A program made the translations under genes and the position numbers. This document shows, piece after piece, positions 7,281 through 16,763 of a stretch of DNA of 64,000 nt. The stretch covers positions 1-64,000 of IMG/VR virus record IMGVR_UViG_3300027754_000075; one strand, given 5' to 3'. The DNA comes from a virus. Under the pieces are notes generated by a model. It did no database searches and was not told where the DNA came from. It saw nothing but the letters and a program-made list of their open reading frames with translations. How positions within the stretch are numbered: the first letter of the stretch is position 1; each line of letters starts with the position of its first letter.

Positions 7281-8642
7281 TTAGTAACCTATATTTGTAA
7301 ATGGTAGTGCATCTTGTTTGTCTACACCATCAAAATCTTTATCATAATCATCATCAAAGATTGGTTCAAGTTCATTAAAACTAAGTGAAAGTTCATATGC
7401 AGTCATAGATCTTCCACCTGGATCGGAATCGTCATAACTCATATATTGACCATCAGGAGTATAGTTTACACTACAATTGGTAAGAGCACATTCTTTAAAA
7501 CGATTTAGATATGGATGATCTTTTGTCGATGTTAAATAACTAATTCTAAAAGTATGTGGTGCCTTTAAAAGAAGAACAGATTCACTTCTTTTTACCGACA
7601 TTGCTTGTTTAAAAGTTCTTATAATGGACCTTACCTCTTGAGCCTCTTTTTTTGATCTCGGAGTCATTTTAAAACTGAAAGAAAACTCTCTAAGTGAAGG
7701 TCCTTCAAAAAGAAGTTCTAAACTTGGATTTACTGCCAATCCACTCAATCTTGAAAGGAGATTATTAGTACCTAGAGCCGCTTCTAATGACTTTGCTTTA
7801 ACAAGTTCTCCCAACATACTCTTACCATCTTTACCCATAATGAGATCTATATCATTTTTAGCAGCATCAGTAGCCCCTTTTGCACCACCCTCAAGAAAAC
7901 CTAAAGCAGCACCAGAAACTGTTTGTACTGCTAAATCAAGAGAGCCGGCGCCCCAAGAGACATTATTTCTATCGGATATTCCTCCACTGGGCATCGGCAA
8001 AAAGATTGATGATAAGAGTGTTCTCCCTGTTCCAGAATTTGTTCTAAGAGTTGGATTTTGGTTTGATAGACCTAATCTGCTTGCTTTATATTCAATAATT
8101 TGAAATTTTATACAATCTTGTAATTCAGCATTCATGTTTACTGGATACTTTAAGTTTTTTGGATAATCTTTTCTACCTTTATATTTTCCTGCTGCTCCTT
8201 CCAACTTATCAATTCCTGCTTGGTCTATGTTGCCTCCTTCTGCTGGTTTATTTGGAATAGTCGGACTACCAGGTGATATTAATTGTTGTGATGAATTGTC
8301 ATCTAAACCACCCCTTTGTGCGGTGATTTTTGCATTACCTTTAACTGTGGTTTGCCCAACAACACTTTTAAAATATTTTTCTTCATTTCTTGTACTTCCC
8401 GGAGTTATCTCAATAGGTTTACCTGGTGTGATTACTCCGACAGTTCTATCTGCAGATGATCCCTGTAAAGATCCACTGGCATTTGGACTTTTTATTGTTA
8501 TCTGCCCCTTGTTCGGACCATCTGCCTCAACTATAGTATAATACTTACCATCACCAAGATTACTATCTGTTTCTACTCCATTTATTTTGTATTTTTTGGG
8601 GGGTATGAATAAATTTTGATCTCTAGATCCATAAGTTGCCAT
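7281..8642 (-). CDS. gp48: gp48 baseplate tail-tube cap
   Basis: A 453-residue tail-tube-fold protein, longer than T4 gp48 (364). The C-terminal half carries the family pattern: LQDCIKFQIIEYKA near residue 173, GPSLREFSFSFKMTPRS near residue 314, then a beta-rich block ending in SLSFNELEPIFDDDYD. The N-terminal 140 residues are Gly/Thr/Pro-rich and beta-like and look like an added module. gp48 caps the baseplate and, with gp54, starts tube polymerisation. A strong GGAGGT ribosome-binding site precedes the minus-strand ATG at 8642. Confidence 0.88.
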   Translation of the reverse strand: MATYGSRDQNLFIPPKKYKINGVETDSNLGDGKYYTIVEADGPNKGQITIKSPNASGSLQGSSADRTVGVITPGKPIEITPGSTRNEEKYFKSVVGQTTVKGNAKITAQRGGLDDNSSQQLISPGSPTIPNKPAEGGNIDQAGIDKLEGAAGKYKGRKDYPKNLKYPVNMNAELQDCIKFQIIEYKASRLGLSNQNPTLRTNSGTGRTLLSSIFLPMPSGGISDRNNVSWGAGSLDLAVQTVSGAALGFLEGGAKGATDAAKNDIDLIMGKDGKSMLGELVKAKSLEAALGTNNLLSRLSGLAVNPSLELLFEGPSLREFSFSFKMTPRSKKEAQEVRSIIRTFKQAMSVKRSESVLLLKAPHTFRISYLTSTKDHPYLNRFKECALTNCSVNYTPDGQYMSYDDSDPGGRSMTAYELSLSFNELEPIFDDDYDKDFDGVDKQDALPFTNIGY

Positions 8643-9594: not shown

Positions 9595-10440
9595 ATGCCT
9601 GCAAAAGTTAGTGTAGATAAAATTAAGGCAAATCTACTTCAACCAGCACTTACATCACATTTTATTGTTGATATACCTTTTCCAAAGTATGGTACAAGTG
9701 AAGGTGGGTTTGGACAATATTTAATTTCTAATGGTGTGAAGTATGATGGAGAAAAGTTGAGATTGTTGTGCTCAGAAGCAACTTTGCCCGGTTCATCACT
9801 CGCAACTCACGAAAATAATAGTGATTTTACTGGAGTGACCGAAAAATTTGCCTATCGTAGATTATATGATGATAGAATTGATTTTACTTTTTATGTTGAT
9901 GCCGAGAATTATCTTCCAATTAGATTTTTTGAATCCTGGATTAAATATATTATTGGAGAAAGTATTGCATCAGGTGCTGGTAGAATTTCATCAAAAAAAC
10001 CAGAGTACTTTTATCGGGCCCGGTATCCAGAGTATTATATTGCTGAACAAGGACTCACAATTACTAAATTTGAAAGAACTTCAAAAAATAAAAAGAGTGC
10101 TGATCACGAGGGCAATACTTTAATTTATAATTTTGTGAATTCATATCCAATATCAATCACATCAATGCCGGTTTCTTATGATGCATCTTCATTACTAAAA
10201 TGTACCGTATCCTTTAGTTATATTCGATATTATGTCGGGGCTAAAGATTACCCATCTACACCAGAGTCTTCATCAAGATCTCCAAATGGAGCAGCAGATA
10301 GTCCATTTACAGGAGCACAATTAGATAATATAGAGGCACTTGATATTGAATATACTCAAGCACTAGCATCAGGAAATAATGATAGAATTGAGGCAGCAGA
10401 TATTGCAGTAACTCAATTCCAACAATCAATACGAAGATAA
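9595..10440 (+). CDS. gp54: gp54-like baseplate tail-tube initiator
   Basis: A 281-residue protein with the gp19/gp54 tube-fold pattern: HFIVDIPFP near residue 22, LRLLCSEATLPGSSL near residue 55, the YDDRIDFTFYVD strand near residue 91, then PISITSMPVSYDASSLLKC and SFSYIRYYV near residues 182-210. A Ser/Gly-rich linker and an acidic helix end the protein. This fold is shared by tube protein gp19 and initiator gp54; the baseplate gene context and the gp48 neighbour favour gp54. A TATAAGTA box at 9574-9581 is a candidate late promoter. Confidence 0.7.
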   Translation: MPAKVSVDKIKANLLQPALTSHFIVDIPFPKYGTSEGGFGQYLISNGVKYDGEKLRLLCSEATLPGSSLATHENNSDFTGVTEKFAYRRLYDDRIDFTFYVDAENYLPIRFFESWIKYIIGESIASGAGRISSKKPEYFYRARYPEYYIAEQGLTITKFERTSKNKKSADHEGNTLIYNFVNSYPISITSMPVSYDASSLLKCTVSFSYIRYYVGAKDYPSTPESSSRSPNGAADSPFTGAQLDNIEALDIEYTQALASGNNDRIEAADIAVTQFQQSIRR

Positions 10441-10490: not shown

Positions 10491-11210
10491 ATGCCTTTAC
10501 CAAAACCCACGACACCGATTTACGAACTTGAGTTGCCTTCTACTGGTGAATCAATTAAATACAGACCCTTTCTTGTTAAAGAAGAAAAGGTGCTGTTGAT
10601 TGCACTAGAGAGTGAAGATACTAAACAGATTACTACTGCAATCAAAACTGTAATTAAGAGTTGTATTATTACTAAAAATATTAAAGTGGAATCACTTCCA
10701 ACTTTTGATATTGAATATTTGTTCTTAAATATTCGTGGTAAATCTGTGGGAGAAGAGATTGAAGTAAATATCATCTGCCCAGATGATGAAGAAACAAATA
10801 CTCTCGTAAAGATTGATTTGGATTCAATCAAGGTTCAAAAGAACGAAGATCATACCAATCAAATTAAGATTGATTCTACAATTATGATGGAAATGAAGTA
10901 TCCATCTTTGGAGCAATTTATTAAGACTAACTTTGATTTTAAAAATGATAATACGATGGATCAATCTTTTGATTTGATTAGTTCTTGTATTGATAAAATT
11001 TATACAGAAGAAGAAGTGTGGATTGCTGCTGATGTTACAAAAAAAGAACTAATTGACTTTTTGGAGCAATTAAATTCTTCACAGTTTAAGCAAATTGAAA
11101 AGTTCTTTGAGACTATGCCCAGACTTTCTCATAAAATCAAAGTTACAAATCCAAAGACCGAAGTTGAAAGTGAAGTTATTTTAGAAGGGTTAGCAAGTTT
11201 TTTCGCATAG
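10491..11210 (+). CDS. gp26: gp26 baseplate hub assembly protein
   Basis: A 239-residue member of the T4 gp26 baseplate family (T4 gp26 is 208). The signature N-terminus reads PTPIYELELPSTGE followed by YRPFLVKEEK, then FDIEYLFLNIRGKS near residue 75. T4 gp26 is needed for hub assembly. The C-terminus ends in ASFFA; the codons for Ser-Phe-Phe form a TTTTTTC slippery sequence just before the stop. The following gp51-like frame is in the -1 register, so a longer gp26-51 fusion may be made, as in lambda gpG/gpGT. Confidence 0.88.
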   Translation: MPLPKPTTPIYELELPSTGESIKYRPFLVKEEKVLLIALESEDTKQITTAIKTVIKSCIITKNIKVESLPTFDIEYLFLNIRGKSVGEEIEVNIICPDDEETNTLVKIDLDSIKVQKNEDHTNQIKIDSTIMMEMKYPSLEQFIKTNFDFKNDNTMDQSFDLISSCIDKIYTEEEVWIAADVTKKELIDFLEQLNSSQFKQIEKFFETMPRLSHKIKVTNPKTEVESEVILEGLASFFA

Positions 11211-11228
11211 CCCTGGTCCACATGGACC
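11198..11228 (+). promoter_or_regulatory. Candidate programmed -1 frameshift site
   Basis: The heptamer TTTTTTC (11198-11204) is aligned with the gp26 frame as T-TTT-TTC. The gp26 stop follows at 11208. A perfect 5-bp hairpin (GGTCC at 11215-11219, loop ACAT, GGACC at 11224-11228) lies ten bases downstream. The -1 frame is open from 11174 to 11385, through the small gp51-like ORF. Confidence 0.6.
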
Positions 11229-11386
11229 TTGAGAATTATTTTCGTCTTAACTTTGCCCTAATGCAATATCATAAATATTCACTTACAGAAATTGAAAATA
11301 TGATACCTTGGGAAAGGGATATTTACGTTGAATTATTAAAACAACATTTAGAAGAAGAAAAACTCAAACAACAACAAAATGGATAA
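11222..11386 (+). CDS. gp51: Small gp51-like hub assembly protein or frameshift extension
   Basis: A 54-residue reading from ATG 11222. The visible motif is SLTEIENMIPWERDIYVELL, then a Glu/Lys/Gln-rich helix. Short IP-WER-like helices of this type end the extended tail-assembly chaperones encoded just before tape-measure genes. The position after gp26 matches T4 gene 51, a hub assembly catalyst, although T4 gp51 is much longer. There is no Shine-Dalgarno sequence and the ATG lies inside the frameshift hairpin, which favours expression as a gp26 fusion. It overlaps the next gene by eight bases. Confidence 0.6.
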   Translation: MDLENYFRLNFALMQYHKYSLTEIENMIPWERDIYVELLKQHLEEEKLKQQQNG

Positions 11387-13760
11387 TCAATCATCAACAG
11401 GAGGATCTATAGTTGCCGTCAAAAAGAACGGTGAAGATCTTGTTGATGAACAAATTGACGAAAGAATTTTAAGACTTCTAGGACTTGAATATATTTTTGA
11501 TATTGATTATGATACATATACGTCTCTTCTAAAGGAGAAGATGGTTGCTGCCAGAATGGCAAAGACTCAAATTCCTACAGAAGAGGCAGAACTTCTTACG
11601 AATGAATATAAAAAGATTAGAGGAAAGAAAGGTAGGTTTAAGGTTAAAAAGATTACATCAGATAGTTTTAAAAAAGGAAGTGCAGTTGGAATTAATTTAG
11701 GAAAACAAAAGGCACTTATAGGAAAACCACAATTAGCACTTCCTCCTGCTGATAAGATGACGGGAGGAAATGATATAAAAGAAATTATTGATGCTCTTGC
11801 TGAAATAATTAAAAGTCTTACGAGTCAAAATAAACTTGCAAAGGATTCTGCAGAAAAATCTAGAATTGCTGGAGAAGCAGGACAGAGAGGTGAAAAAGAA
11901 TCAAAATTAGAGAAGGGATTTAAGTTTGCAATCAAGGCAGCAGAAAAGATTATTGCTCCCATTAAATCTTTGCTTGATAGAATTATTGATTTCTTTGTTG
12001 CTATTTTTGTCGGAAGAGCACTGATTAAACTCTTAGATTGGTTTAGTGATTCTAAAAATCAAGACAAAATCAAAGCAATTGGTAGATTTTTAGGAGACCA
12101 GTGGCCTAAACTTCTTGCTCTTTATATAATGTTCGGAACTGGTTTAGGAAAGTTTGTTGGATTTTTAACCAAGATTGTTATTCGTGGAGGTATTAAACTT
12201 GCAGCTGCTGCAGCAGGATTATTAGCAAAGGCAGGTGTCGGAAAGGCAGCAGGAGCAGCAAAGTTTCTTGGTGGAAAATATGGAAAACTTTTAGGAGCAG
12301 GATTAGAACTTACTGCAACTGTCGGCACCACAATGGCCGTAAGTAAAGGTATTGAAAATTTTGGTGGAATTGGTGGAGAAGAACAAAAGACTCAAGGATA
12401 TTCTGGTGGTGGATTTGTAATTCCAAAGTTTGCCGGTGGTGGGTTAAACTTTAAAGGTATGATGGGTGGTGCCGGAATGGGTTCTATGTTTGGACCTCTT
12501 GGTATGTTACTGGGTGCTGGTCTTGGGTCTGGAAAAATTCAAGAAACTGTGAGTGGTCTGATTGGGGGACAAAAAGGTGTAGATAAAGTTCCGGCAATGC
12601 TCACGGATGGTGAGTTTGTAATGTCTCGTGGTGCCGTGCAGAAGTATGGTGTGGATACTCTGGAGTCAATGAATGCTGCTGGTGGAGGAACTAATCAACC
12701 AAAGATTGTTTCTGGAACCACTTATGCTGCTGGTGGTGGGATGATTGGTGGTAAACCTATGAATAAATCATCAAGTTCTCCTATTGAACCAAAGATTCCT
12801 ACATTATCTCCAATTAATTTATCATCTTCCAGTTCTTCTAATGTAAATGTAGGTTCAGGAAATAATGCAATTGATATATCTGCAAATTTAATTAAAAAAG
12901 AGGAGGCACTTTCTTCGTTATCTCCAGGAAAAAATGACTATATTGTTCCTGGAGGAAAAAGTGTAGTTAGTGGAACTGACTGGTCTAATATTGGTCCAAA
13001 GACTAAAATTTATGCATATCCAGATAGTAAAGGAATTCCAACAATAGGTTGGGGAGCAACTTTTTATGATGGGATTACAAGTGGGACAAAATCTGTTAAA
13101 TTAGGAGATTCAATTACAAAAGAAAATGCAGATAAGACACTTGCAAATAATATTGGAATTTTGGCAAAAAAATATTCTAAAGAAATTGCAAATTGGTCAA
13201 AAATGTCTCCTCAACAACAATCTGCAATTCTATCAATTGGATATAATGCAGGACCAAATGCACCATTAGGAGCATATCCAAAATTATCTGCGGCAATTAA
13301 ATCTGGAAATATGGTTGAGGTTGCAAATAATATTACTCGTGATGGCCCAAGTGCAGAAAGAATTGCAAACGAAAAAAAACTTTTACTATCTGGACCCAAA
13401 GATCTGACAAAACAAACCACAGCACCATCAAAAATAACGACTCCAATTGCAAAAAATCAACCAAATATGTTTCAAAAATTTGGTTCAGCAATCTCATCAA
13501 TAATGTCTCCCTCAGCATTAGCTGAGCAACCTTCAGCATCTTCTAAATTAAATCCTGCTCAGATACAAACTCAAAATAATGTTCCAAAAATAAACCCACC
13601 ATCAAAATCAAAAGTAAAGGTTGTTTATGCAACATCACCTGGTGGTATACCAAAATTAAATACTTCTTCTGGTGCATCTCCATCAGTCCCTTCTTTTAGT
13701 GCAGTACATCCAAATTCTGAAAGCAGAAGAAGAAATGCTGCCGTTCTTGGAGTTAAGTAA
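11379..13760 (+). CDS. Tape-measure/hub-like protein with GH24-type lysozyme domain
   Basis: A 793-residue protein. Residues 1-100 are charged and helical. Residues 200-325 are strongly hydrophobic and Gly/Ala-rich. KVPAMLTDGEFVMSRGAV near residue 405 is a motif common in tape-measure C-termini. Residues 520-670 resemble phage lysozyme: YPDSKGIPTIGWG, then QQQSAILSIGYNAGP. The Asp and Thr of the GH24 triad are present, but the Glu expected nine residues before the Asp is not seen. A Ser/Pro-rich tail follows. By position after gp26/gp51 it is the likely equivalent of the T4 hub or tape region (gp28/gp29), working inside the tube or central hub. Confidence 0.7.
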   Translation: MDNQSSTGGSIVAVKKNGEDLVDEQIDERILRLLGLEYIFDIDYDTYTSLLKEKMVAARMAKTQIPTEEAELLTNEYKKIRGKKGRFKVKKITSDSFKKGSAVGINLGKQKALIGKPQLALPPADKMTGGNDIKEIIDALAEIIKSLTSQNKLAKDSAEKSRIAGEAGQRGEKESKLEKGFKFAIKAAEKIIAPIKSLLDRIIDFFVAIFVGRALIKLLDWFSDSKNQDKIKAIGRFLGDQWPKLLALYIMFGTGLGKFVGFLTKIVIRGGIKLAAAAAGLLAKAGVGKAAGAAKFLGGKYGKLLGAGLELTATVGTTMAVSKGIENFGGIGGEEQKTQGYSGGGFVIPKFAGGGLNFKGMMGGAGMGSMFGPLGMLLGAGLGSGKIQETVSGLIGGQKGVDKVPAMLTDGEFVMSRGAVQKYGVDTLESMNAAGGGTNQPKIVSGTTYAAGGGMIGGKPMNKSSSSPIEPKIPTLSPINLSSSSSSNVNVGSGNNAIDISANLIKKEEALSSLSPGKNDYIVPGGKSVVSGTDWSNIGPKTKIYAYPDSKGIPTIGWGATFYDGITSGTKSVKLGDSITKENADKTLANNIGILAKKYSKEIANWSKMSPQQQSAILSIGYNAGPNAPLGAYPKLSAAIKSGNMVEVANNITRDGPSAERIANEKKLLLSGPKDLTKQTTAPSKITTPIAKNQPNMFQKFGSAISSIMSPSALAEQPSASSKLNPAQIQTQNNVPKINPPSKSKVKVVYATSPGGIPKLNTSSGASPSVPSFSAVHPNSESRRRNAAVLGVK

Positions 13761-13763
13761 GAT

Positions 13764-16763
13764 ATGGAAACTCCAAAGTTATCTCCTGCAAAAATAAATC
13801 CAACAAAACTTTTACCAGGAATATCTATATCTACAAAAAAAATATCTACAGAAAGTCTTCAGGAAGAAAGTGTTAGTGTACTTAAAAGTGATTTGTTTAT
13901 TATCAAAAAGCAAGTCTTTAAGGTTCGTGATTTAATTCAGACTTCTACACTTATAAAGCAGTCAGAACTTGAAAAGAAAAGAAAATCAACAGAAAAAAAA
14001 GAAGCAGAAAAACAAGAAAATAAGTTAGAGGCAAAACCAGAAGAAAAAAAAGACAAACTAAAAATGCCTTCTATGCCAAAACTTGGGTTTTTGGATAGAA
14101 TTAAGAACTTTCTTTTTTCAGTTCTTCTTGGATATATCTCAATTAAACTTTTACCACATCTTCCAAAACTTGTAGGTATTGTAAGTATTATTGGAAATGT
14201 GATGGAGTTTATGATAGATTTGGGTGGAAATATATTAGATAAAGTAGTCACATTTATTGATTGGGGATATAAGGCAATAGATGCGACTCGTGGATTTATG
14301 AAAAGTTTTGGTGGAGACTTTTCATTAAAAATCTTTGATACTTTTACTGGTGCCGTGAGTGGTGTGATTGATGCTGCGATTATTGCAGCACTTGCCCTCT
14401 CTACTCAAGGTATGGGGGGTGGAGGTGGTCCTGATGGTGGAAAGGGTGGAGGTCCTCTAAAAAGTGGAAAACAACTCTGGAAAGAATATGATCAAAAAAG
14501 AGCATTCATAAGAAAAAAACACGGAGATGCTGCTGCAAGAATATATGATAATGAAATATCAAATGGTAAAACTCCAAAACAAGCATTTGAAAATCTCAAG
14601 AAAAGATACATTTCGAAAGGAAAAATAGTATCACAAAGGCAATTGGGTCTTGGGGAAATTAAAGGAAGTAAACTTTTTGGTAAAGGAATTGATAAAGTAC
14701 CTGGTAGATTGGCAACAAGAATCCTTGGGAGAAGTGGTAAGAAAGCAGTTCTTGGATTTGCAAAACCTTTTCTAAAACGACTTCCTATTATTGGAGCACT
14801 AATTGATTTTGGTTTATCTGTTGCTCTTGGAGAAGACCCAGGTAGAGCAGCATTTAAAGCAATCGGTGCAGGTCTTCTTGGATTTGTTGGTGCTGCTATT
14901 GGTACAGTAGTCCCTGTTGCAGGAAATCTTGTAGGTGGTATAATTGGTGGAATTGCTGGTGATGCACTTGGTGGAGCACTTTATGATATGTTCTTTGGTG
15001 GTAAAAAACCAAAAGCACAAAAATCTCAAACAGTAAAAGCAGCAGGTGGTGGCCCTGCTCCAGTAACCAGAGGTAATAAAATCGTTGGAGGAGCAGTTAA
15101 GAGAACCATATCAAGGAAACCTGTTAAAAGAGGAGTAAAGGTTCAGGTTACAAAAGTTAAACCTGGTAGTTCTATTGGTGGAAAGAAAAAGATTGAAAAG
15201 ATATTTCCAGAGGTGCCAACAAAGGATAAGGGTAAAAATGTAAACCCTCTTGGTTATATGCAATCTTCTTATAATATTGCAACAAAAACTCCTTCCTTTG
15301 GAGCACTTTTTGCACTTCCACTCAAGGCACAACTTGGAGAAAAACCAAGTTCTGTGGATTATATGAAGGCAGCAGAAGAATTGTCCGGATGGATGCAGAA
15401 TACTTTTAGAGGCACTGCCGGATATGCTGGTGGTGGAAAAGTAGAGGCAGGAATGTTTGGTGGTGAGGATACAACAAATGTAATCGCAAAATCTTTAGAA
15501 GAAAATATTTCATCAAAGGTTGATGCTGCAATTAAAGAGTTGCAAAAGCAATTGATGTTAAAAGAAGGAGAAAAGGAAACTGGTCAAAAGAAAACTGGTC
15601 CTGATGAAGGTGCTATGGGAACCGGGGAATATTCTCCAGAAGGTCTTCAGGGTGAAATATACCAATATCTTCTTTCAAAAGGACTGGACGATACCCATGC
15701 TCTGGGTCTGATGGCAAATATATCCAGAGAAAGTGGATTTAGACCTGGAGTTGAAGAAGAAGGTGGTGGAGGTGGAGTTGGATTATTTCAATATACTAAT
15801 GAACCAAGAAAAGGTAATTTTTTAAAAGCAGTTCCAAACTATAAAACAAATTGGAAGGGTCAAATTGATTATGCTCTCAAAGAACCAGGAGAACCAGGTC
15901 CACAGTGGATTGCTATGAAGTTTTCTTCACCACAAGAAGCAGCAGATTGGTTTATGAGAAAATGGGAGAGACCTGCAGAATATATTCAAAACACAGAAGG
16001 ACCCAAAATACACGCAGAGTATATTAAAAGTCTTGAAAAATATAAAAGTAAAACTGGAAACGGATATAATTTACCATCTGCAGATATTGGAAGTAAAGGT
16101 AATGCTGTTCAATATGTTACTGGAGATGTAAATTATAAAGGAGATGGGCAACAATTTTATTATGATCTTGCTGGTCATGGATTGCCTGGAAATTATCATG
16201 ATCATATTGCTTTTGCTACGATTGCAGATAAAGAAATAGCAAAGAAAAAACTAAGAGCAGCAAATATCGAAACTGGAAGTGAATATAGAGCAGGAGATCC
16301 TGGATATCACGGTAAAAATTTGGCAGTTGATGTTCCGGGGGGTCAATGGGGTGGGTCTGGTGCAATTGGACAAAAAGAATTTGCTGGATCTAGAAAGGTA
16401 AGACAAGTTTTAGGAATAGGAGCATACTTAAAAGGTGGGAGAGTTACAAAAACCACTCTTGCAACTCTTGCCGAAGACGGAAGACCAGAATTTGTTTTTG
16501 ATGCTGACACCACAAAGGGATTGGATTTCCTTGCACCAAATCTCTTGGAATATTTGAATGCTGCAAAAACTAAGACTCAATTAATGAGCATTCTTCAATC
16601 TTATGCGGGATATGAAGATGGTGCAGAGCAGACGGTGATTGTAATGAATAATCCTCAAATGATTCCAATACCAATTCCAACAGGAAATTCTGGTTCAATT
16701 GGTGGTATGAGTCGTTCATCCAGTATAGATACAACATATGATACTCAATATGCAAATGCATAA
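13764..16763 (+). CDS. Tape-measure/hub-like protein with phage tail lysozyme domain
   Basis: A 999-residue protein. A Lys/Glu-rich coiled coil lies at residues 40-100. Hydrophobic segments lie at 105-220, and a Gly/Ala membrane-like stretch at 335-415. GYAGGGKVEAG near residue 555 is tape-like. Residues 620-765 match the phage_lysozyme2 pattern: GLDDTHALGLMANISRESGF and GVGLFQYTN, with a candidate catalytic Glu in SRESGF. A further His/Asp-rich block at 770-885 (GYHGKNLAVDVPGG) could be a second wall-binding or peptidase module. The C-terminus has EDGRPEFVFDAD, typical of tape-measure ends. It follows the previous gene by three bases. Confidence 0.7.
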   Translation: METPKLSPAKINPTKLLPGISISTKKISTESLQEESVSVLKSDLFIIKKQVFKVRDLIQTSTLIKQSELEKKRKSTEKKEAEKQENKLEAKPEEKKDKLKMPSMPKLGFLDRIKNFLFSVLLGYISIKLLPHLPKLVGIVSIIGNVMEFMIDLGGNILDKVVTFIDWGYKAIDATRGFMKSFGGDFSLKIFDTFTGAVSGVIDAAIIAALALSTQGMGGGGGPDGGKGGGPLKSGKQLWKEYDQKRAFIRKKHGDAAARIYDNEISNGKTPKQAFENLKKRYISKGKIVSQRQLGLGEIKGSKLFGKGIDKVPGRLATRILGRSGKKAVLGFAKPFLKRLPIIGALIDFGLSVALGEDPGRAAFKAIGAGLLGFVGAAIGTVVPVAGNLVGGIIGGIAGDALGGALYDMFFGGKKPKAQKSQTVKAAGGGPAPVTRGNKIVGGAVKRTISRKPVKRGVKVQVTKVKPGSSIGGKKKIEKIFPEVPTKDKGKNVNPLGYMQSSYNIATKTPSFGALFALPLKAQLGEKPSSVDYMKAAEELSGWMQNTFRGTAGYAGGGKVEAGMFGGEDTTNVIAKSLEENISSKVDAAIKELQKQLMLKEGEKETGQKKTGPDEGAMGTGEYSPEGLQGEIYQYLLSKGLDDTHALGLMANISRESGFRPGVEEEGGGGGVGLFQYTNEPRKGNFLKAVPNYKTNWKGQIDYALKEPGEPGPQWIAMKFSSPQEAADWFMRKWERPAEYIQNTEGPKIHAEYIKSLEKYKSKTGNGYNLPSADIGSKGNAVQYVTGDVNYKGDGQQFYYDLAGHGLPGNYHDHIAFATIADKEIAKKKLRAANIETGSEYRAGDPGYHGKNLAVDVPGGQWGGSGAIGQKEFAGSRKVRQVLGIGAYLKGGRVTKTTLATLAEDGRPEFVFDADTTKGLDFLAPNLLEYLNAAKTKTQLMSILQSYAGYEDGAEQTVIVMNNPQMIPIPIPTGNSGSIGGMSRSSSIDTTYDTQYANA

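Follow-up and report, generated by a model that had tools for sequence, protein, structure and literature searches.

A predicted -1 ribosomal frameshift joining gp26 to a gp51-like extension in relatives of phage T4

Bacteriophage lambda produces its tail proteins gpG and gpGT by -1 frameshifting, and many phages with long tails carry a signal of this kind (Xu et al., 2004, cited in Atkins et al., 2016, PMC5009743). Phage T4 has long been listed as the exception, the G-T frameshift being described as widely conserved "except T4" (Atkins et al., 2016). The stretch of DNA considered here comes from a T4-like marine phage; this window of 64,000 nucleotides, which forms part of a 72,747-base IMG/VR virus record, carries a homolog of T4 gene 26 followed by a short gp51-like open reading frame, and the question that it raises is whether these are two genes or the short and long products of one. 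From the sequence we infer, for slippage, efficiency and chaperone function alike, that a -1 programmed ribosomal frameshift very probably yields a short and a long tail-assembly chaperone at this locus.

Reading frames at the end of gp26

The window gp26 is matched over its full length by the PF12322 T4_baseplate (gp26) profile, with a score of 245 bits against a cut-off of 24.5 (Table 1). The closest named phage among the matches listed for this protein is Synechococcus phage SynMITS9220M01 (79.5%). The last codons of the gene read GCA AGT TTT TTC GCA TAG. A preliminary description, made from the sequence of the window without database searches, had pointed to an in-phase TTTTTTC at this end and to a -1 frame that is open across the stop; both are read directly from the DNA, the -1 frame being open from 11174, past the gp26 stop, to a TAA at 11384-11386. 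Because an upstream TGA closes this frame, the shift has to fall between 11174 and the gp26 stop.

Table 1. Features of the gp26 locus and its flanking genes, in window coordinates
Feature	Position	Strand	Evidence
Tail-tube-like gene, just upstream of gp26	9595..10440	+	PF23849 E 3e-14; phrog_45 E 8.2e-32
gp26, zero-frame short product, likely short tail-assembly chaperone, 239 aa	10491..11210	+	PF12322 E 8.9e-73; phrog_150 E 3.1e-77
TGA closing the -1 frame upstream	11171..11173	+	sequence
Slippery heptamer T_TTT_TTC, in the X_XXY_YYZ phase of gp26	11198..11204	+	sequence, alignment
-1 extension, gp51-like C-terminal domain of 62 codons (counted from FF) and a stop	11198..11386	+	phrog_634 E 1.9e-29; end of phrog_150 E 4.8e-7
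Zero-frame stop TAG	11208..11210	+	sequence
5-bp hairpin GGTCC-ACAT-GGACC (stem 11215-11219 / 11224-11228), likely stimulator	11215..11228	+	covariation
ATG usually annotated as gp51 start, within the hairpin, without Shine-Dalgarno	11222..11224	+	sequence; not conserved in relatives
Large gene with lysozyme domain, tape-measure candidate, overlaps the end of the -1 ORF	11379..13760	+	PF00959 E 1.1e-11; weak tape-measure PHROG matches E 0.004-0.03
Second large gene with tail lysozyme domain, better tape-measure candidate	13764..16763	+	PF18013 E 4.3e-20; phrog_167 tape measure E 4.7e-10

As a string, TTTTTTC occurs in the window at chance level (45 found, 40.6 expected). The combination of an in-phase XXXYYYZ no more than 24 nt from the stop with at least 50 open codons in the -1 frame was found only in gp26 among the 71 ORFs of at least 100 aa on both strands.

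Under the proposed mechanism, most ribosomes translating gp26 would terminate at the TAG at 11208 and release the short protein. A minority would pause at T_TTT_TTC, held by the hairpin 10 nt downstream, and both tRNAs would slip back by one base; reading would then go on as CGC ATA GCC... to 11386, giving a predicted gp26/gp51-like fusion of ~298 aa. The two forms would act on the tape-measure protein and bring in tail-tube subunits, the roles of gpG and gpGT in lambda; T4 would supply the same pair from paralogous genes, with gene 26 for the short form and gene 51 for the long one. Reannotation along these lines would place a join at 11204; no annotated gp26-gp51 join was found in four close phage records.

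Conservation of the heptamer and the downstream hairpin

Relatives were sought in viral contigs with single-protein queries, and the heptamer, the -1 phase and the open frame, for which the preliminary description had proposed an alignment of many phages, proved to be conserved among them. At 114 of 115 homologous junctions (104 distinct), TTTTTTN stands in phase 7-13 bases upstream of the stop, and the -1 frame is open. The heptamer of these 114 lies at -10 in 107, at -7 in five and at -13 in two, and reads TTTTTTC in 104 and TTTTTTT in eight, with a final G and a final A in one each. Among the close IMG/VR relatives whose gp26 stop can be read, TTTTTTC lies exactly 10 nt ahead of that stop without exception (78/78). 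The in-phase T_TTT_TTN with its open -1 frame is likewise found in the distant phages S-CRM01, phiM7, Yut2, Ci1, Aeromonas 65, Vibrio V05, ValKK3, phiM9, XG4, IC12, nACB2, S-B68 and Melnitz-1, and in further IMG/VR contigs, so that the signal extends over Kyanoviridae, several Straboviridae groups, and rhizobial, Stenotrophomonas and Acinetobacter phages. Only Vibrio phage D495 departs from this pattern, with CTTTTC in place of the T-run and a -1 ORF that is still homologous. In this phage (3050-3140 of the sequence compared) a TAATGG of the -1 ORF overlaps the gp26 stop, and it may have switched to reinitiation.

The pattern of variation around the site also marks the point at which the reading frame changes. 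Across 77 distinct close sequences, the entropy of the heptamer is zero; the variable positions before it are mainly zero-frame third positions, and those after it are -1-frame third positions, including codons that precede the ATG. The codon-periodic variation switches frame exactly at the heptamer, and coding constraint on the -1 frame begins there, upstream of the ATG at 11222. The residue before the two phenylalanines may be S, D, N, R, A or T, yet T is invariably the last base of its codon, and TTT invariably the codon of the first phenylalanine. Given codon usage, retention of both features has a log10 P of about -13.8 in 39 representatives of less than 75% identity treated as independent, which argues that the heptamer is kept beyond amino-acid need.

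Downstream of the heptamer, the hairpin described beforehand as 5-bp and GC-rich stands as to its length and its 10-nt spacing; its GC-richness holds for the window and does not extend to the relatives, whose commonest stem is GATCC/GGATC. The ATG at 11222-11224 occupies part of the loop and of the stem. Taken singly, the window hairpin is unremarkable (fold z -1.66), and its support therefore comes from the alignment of the 77 sequences, in which each of the five pairs has cells altered in both bases (43 in all, where shuffles give 11.9) and 85.7% of cells are paired, against 79.0 in shuffles, with slid versions performing much worse. Since the stem bases also code, codons were permuted among sequences with the same amino acid: perfect Watson-Crick stems number 36 of 77, where 11.3 +/- 2.8 are expected with amino acids held fixed (maximum 22 in 1000) and 2.2 +/- 1.4 under codon-usage resampling. 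The excess persists after thinning to 27 sequences (11 versus 3.5; no permutation of 1000 reached it); with 16 sequences it weakens (P 0.01-0.02). This covariation indicates that the hairpin is likely a stimulatory structure in the close clade. In distant phages the downstream hairpins vary in position and strength, and some are weak.

The gp51 start codon and alternatives to ribosomal slippage

An early -1-frame ATG is present in 92 of the 104 distinct junctions, GTG or TTG is the only early start in four, and eight contain none of the three in the first 13 codons after the slip; these eight argue against a separate gp51 start as what is conserved. The gp51-like -1 ORF is left unannotated in the records of Aeromonas phage Ah1, S-PRM1, ACG-2014d and ACG-2014b, and in Ah1, ACG-2014d and ACG-2014b it lacks an early ATG. 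A Shine-Dalgarno-like motif precedes gp26 in 42 of 78 sequences, gp51 in 0 of 77 and the next gene in 4 of 71. Frameshifting had been argued at the outset from the missing ribosome-binding site of gp51 and from the position of its ATG inside the hairpin, and both observations are correct; the missing site is a weak argument by itself, because the following gene mostly lacks one too. A conserved gp51 start with its own ribosome-binding site, which would have spoken for an independent gene, was not found among the relatives.

These observations bear on what else might produce the gp51-like protein. Conceivably, the frameshift fusion is accompanied by a free C-terminal domain of ~54 aa, made by reinitiation in the lineages with an early ATG, for a total of three products; this proposal extends and overlaps with frameshifting, and it is unlikely, for the frequent ATG and the stop-start overlaps (TAATG or TGATG) seen in several relatives favor it, but the ATG is not conserved family-wide and, in the close clade, resides within a covarying hairpin without a Shine-Dalgarno motif.

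Less room is left for gp51 as a wholly separate gene, reached by reinitiation or translational coupling at an ATG after the gp26 stop, with the T-run amounting to nothing but two phenylalanine codons. The same early ATGs and overlaps could serve such a mechanism, the window ATG also permits it, and many records annotate gp51 as a gene of its own. It is nevertheless very improbable in view of the junctions and named phages that have no early ATG, the codon-like conservation that sets in upstream of the ATG, the retention of the heptamer beyond coding need, the uniform lack of a Shine-Dalgarno motif and the presence of both parts within one protein in T4. Finally, slippage of RNA polymerase on the T-run, which reaches 7-8 T in some relatives, is highly improbable as a source of the fusion: six T followed by C, the form in 104 of 114 junctions, is short for transcriptional slippage, and the tandem-codon phase X_XXY_YYZ with a covarying hairpin downstream fits ribosomal shifting.

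Ribosomal frameshifting would also account for irregularities in existing annotation. Cyanophage gp51 has been reported to be ~20% of the usual length, and gp51 to be missing only in Aeh1 (Sullivan et al., 2010, PMC3037559); a -1 extension annotated by itself would explain the truncated appearance, and one left unannotated the apparent lack of gp51 in some phages. Phage Ah1 is annotated without gp51, yet the same slippery site and extension are present, and, reading across from Ah1, the "missing gp51" of Aeh1 probably reflects a frameshift that went unnoticed in annotation. In one T4-like contig, around position 2860, the gp51 frame stops after 120 aa and resumes in another frame, which suggests a broken gene or a sequencing error.

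Relationship to T4 genes 26 and 51 and to other tail chaperones

Both T4 gp26 (208 aa) and T4 gp51 (249 aa) are full-length matches to PF12322 (E 8.8e-64 and 3.9e-52), the family of the window gp26, and T4 gp51 covers 13-280 of hub family phrog_150, plus phrog_634. The gp26 profile aligns with 14-198 of T4-type gp51 (E 8.9e-12), and 200-246 is covered by the -1 ORF profile (E 9.2e-8); the two parts are consecutive, and their junction is where the slip occurs in the frameshift form. By these alignments, T4 gp51 is a gp26-like domain and a gp51-like C-terminal domain in one frame, and T4 gp26 is a paralog of its first part. T4 differs from the window in that its two genes lie on opposite strands and in that gene 26 ends with no heptamer and no useful -1 extension. 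In an unrooted tree, T4-type gp26, T4-type gp51 and frameshift-type gp26 form three separate groups, a pattern compatible with a single duplication in the lineage of T4. The wider spread of the frameshift, which includes the Straboviridae phages Ci1, 65, V05 and Ah1, suggests that it is older than the two-gene form, the tree itself being unrooted. The idea, advanced in the preliminary description, that T4 genes 26 and 51 descend from the same two-product logic thus stands in so far as they are paralogs that correspond to a short and a long form, whereas T4 itself has no frameshift and expresses the two from opposite strands.

The shared N-terminal part of the predicted short and long proteins, matched in T4 by gp26 and gp51, points to the pair being likely tail-assembly chaperones, and T4 gp26 and gp51 have been listed as hub assembly chaperones, with gp51 absent from the particle (PMC3004832). 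The arrangement resembles that of lambda gpG/gpGT, in which a short gene of chaperone type likewise carries a slippery heptamer close to its 3′ end, followed by a small -1 extension, and lies between the tail-tube gene and large genes that here are tape-measure candidates; what differs here is the heptamer, T_TTT_TTC, and the protein family, PF12322. In the window, the tail-tube gene upstream is clear and the tape measure downstream is weakly identified: the earlier statement that a tape-measure-like gene follows rests, for the gene directly adjacent, on a weak assignment. The two large downstream genes display weak N-terminal similarity to each other (E 8e-4).

As to homology, profile comparison of gp26 with XkdN-like chaperones gave no relation (E 0.71 and 0.33), and sequence searches returned no solved structure for gp26 and no credible one for T4-type gp51. 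In a blind fold search of the gp26 model against 350,542 PDB chains, ranks 2 and 11 fall to the HK97 tail assembly chaperone 2ob9, and rank 21 to YqbN 3klu, the structure matched by an XkdN-like chaperone of PF08890, all within an E range of 0.9-3.4 in which none is significant; the corresponding search with the T4-type long-protein model gave no chaperone match. The modeled fold is thus at most a weak hint of homology to lambda-type chaperones, and the lambda parallel drawn initially holds for the logic of the system, without a sequence relation to the XkdN-like family.

Much of this logic has apparently been described before. As cited in PMC10885494 and PMC12846349, Vladimirov, Gautam and Davidson (2022, Virology 566:9-15) report that the tail assembly chaperones of T4-like phages come in a short and a long form, that the short gene carries poly-T signals for a -1 shift, and that some of these phages have a short gene beside a fused one. 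This is apparently the gene pair considered here, so that, to judge from these two citing papers, the mechanism and the T4 two-gene arrangement are already published, novelty is limited and the window site is a further instance. Hairpin covariation and start-less lineages were not found elsewhere; the 2022 paper may cover them, as it may cyanophages. A T-rich -1 site and an unannotated C-terminal ORF before the tape-measure gene also occur in Pakpunavirus Adele and Vandenendeviridae, which differ in their GTTTTT motif and belong to another phage family (PMC12846349).

For T4, the implication is that a large part of its broader kin, hundreds of cyanophage records among them, has the gene pair together with the signal, and that its own gp26 and gp51 resemble a short and a long form divided between two genes. 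A more tentative extension, possible although rather doubtful, is that the hairpin has a double role, stimulating the -1 shift and masking the internal ATG, which would keep free gp51 scarce, that lineages differ in whether a free third, C-terminal product arises, and that the T4 lineage escaped the shift by duplication and in-frame fusion of one copy. A weak similarity also links T4 gp26 (7803-8429 in the sequence compared) to the gp28 family (phrog_1140, E 9e-4), and gp28 may be a further distant relative of gp26.
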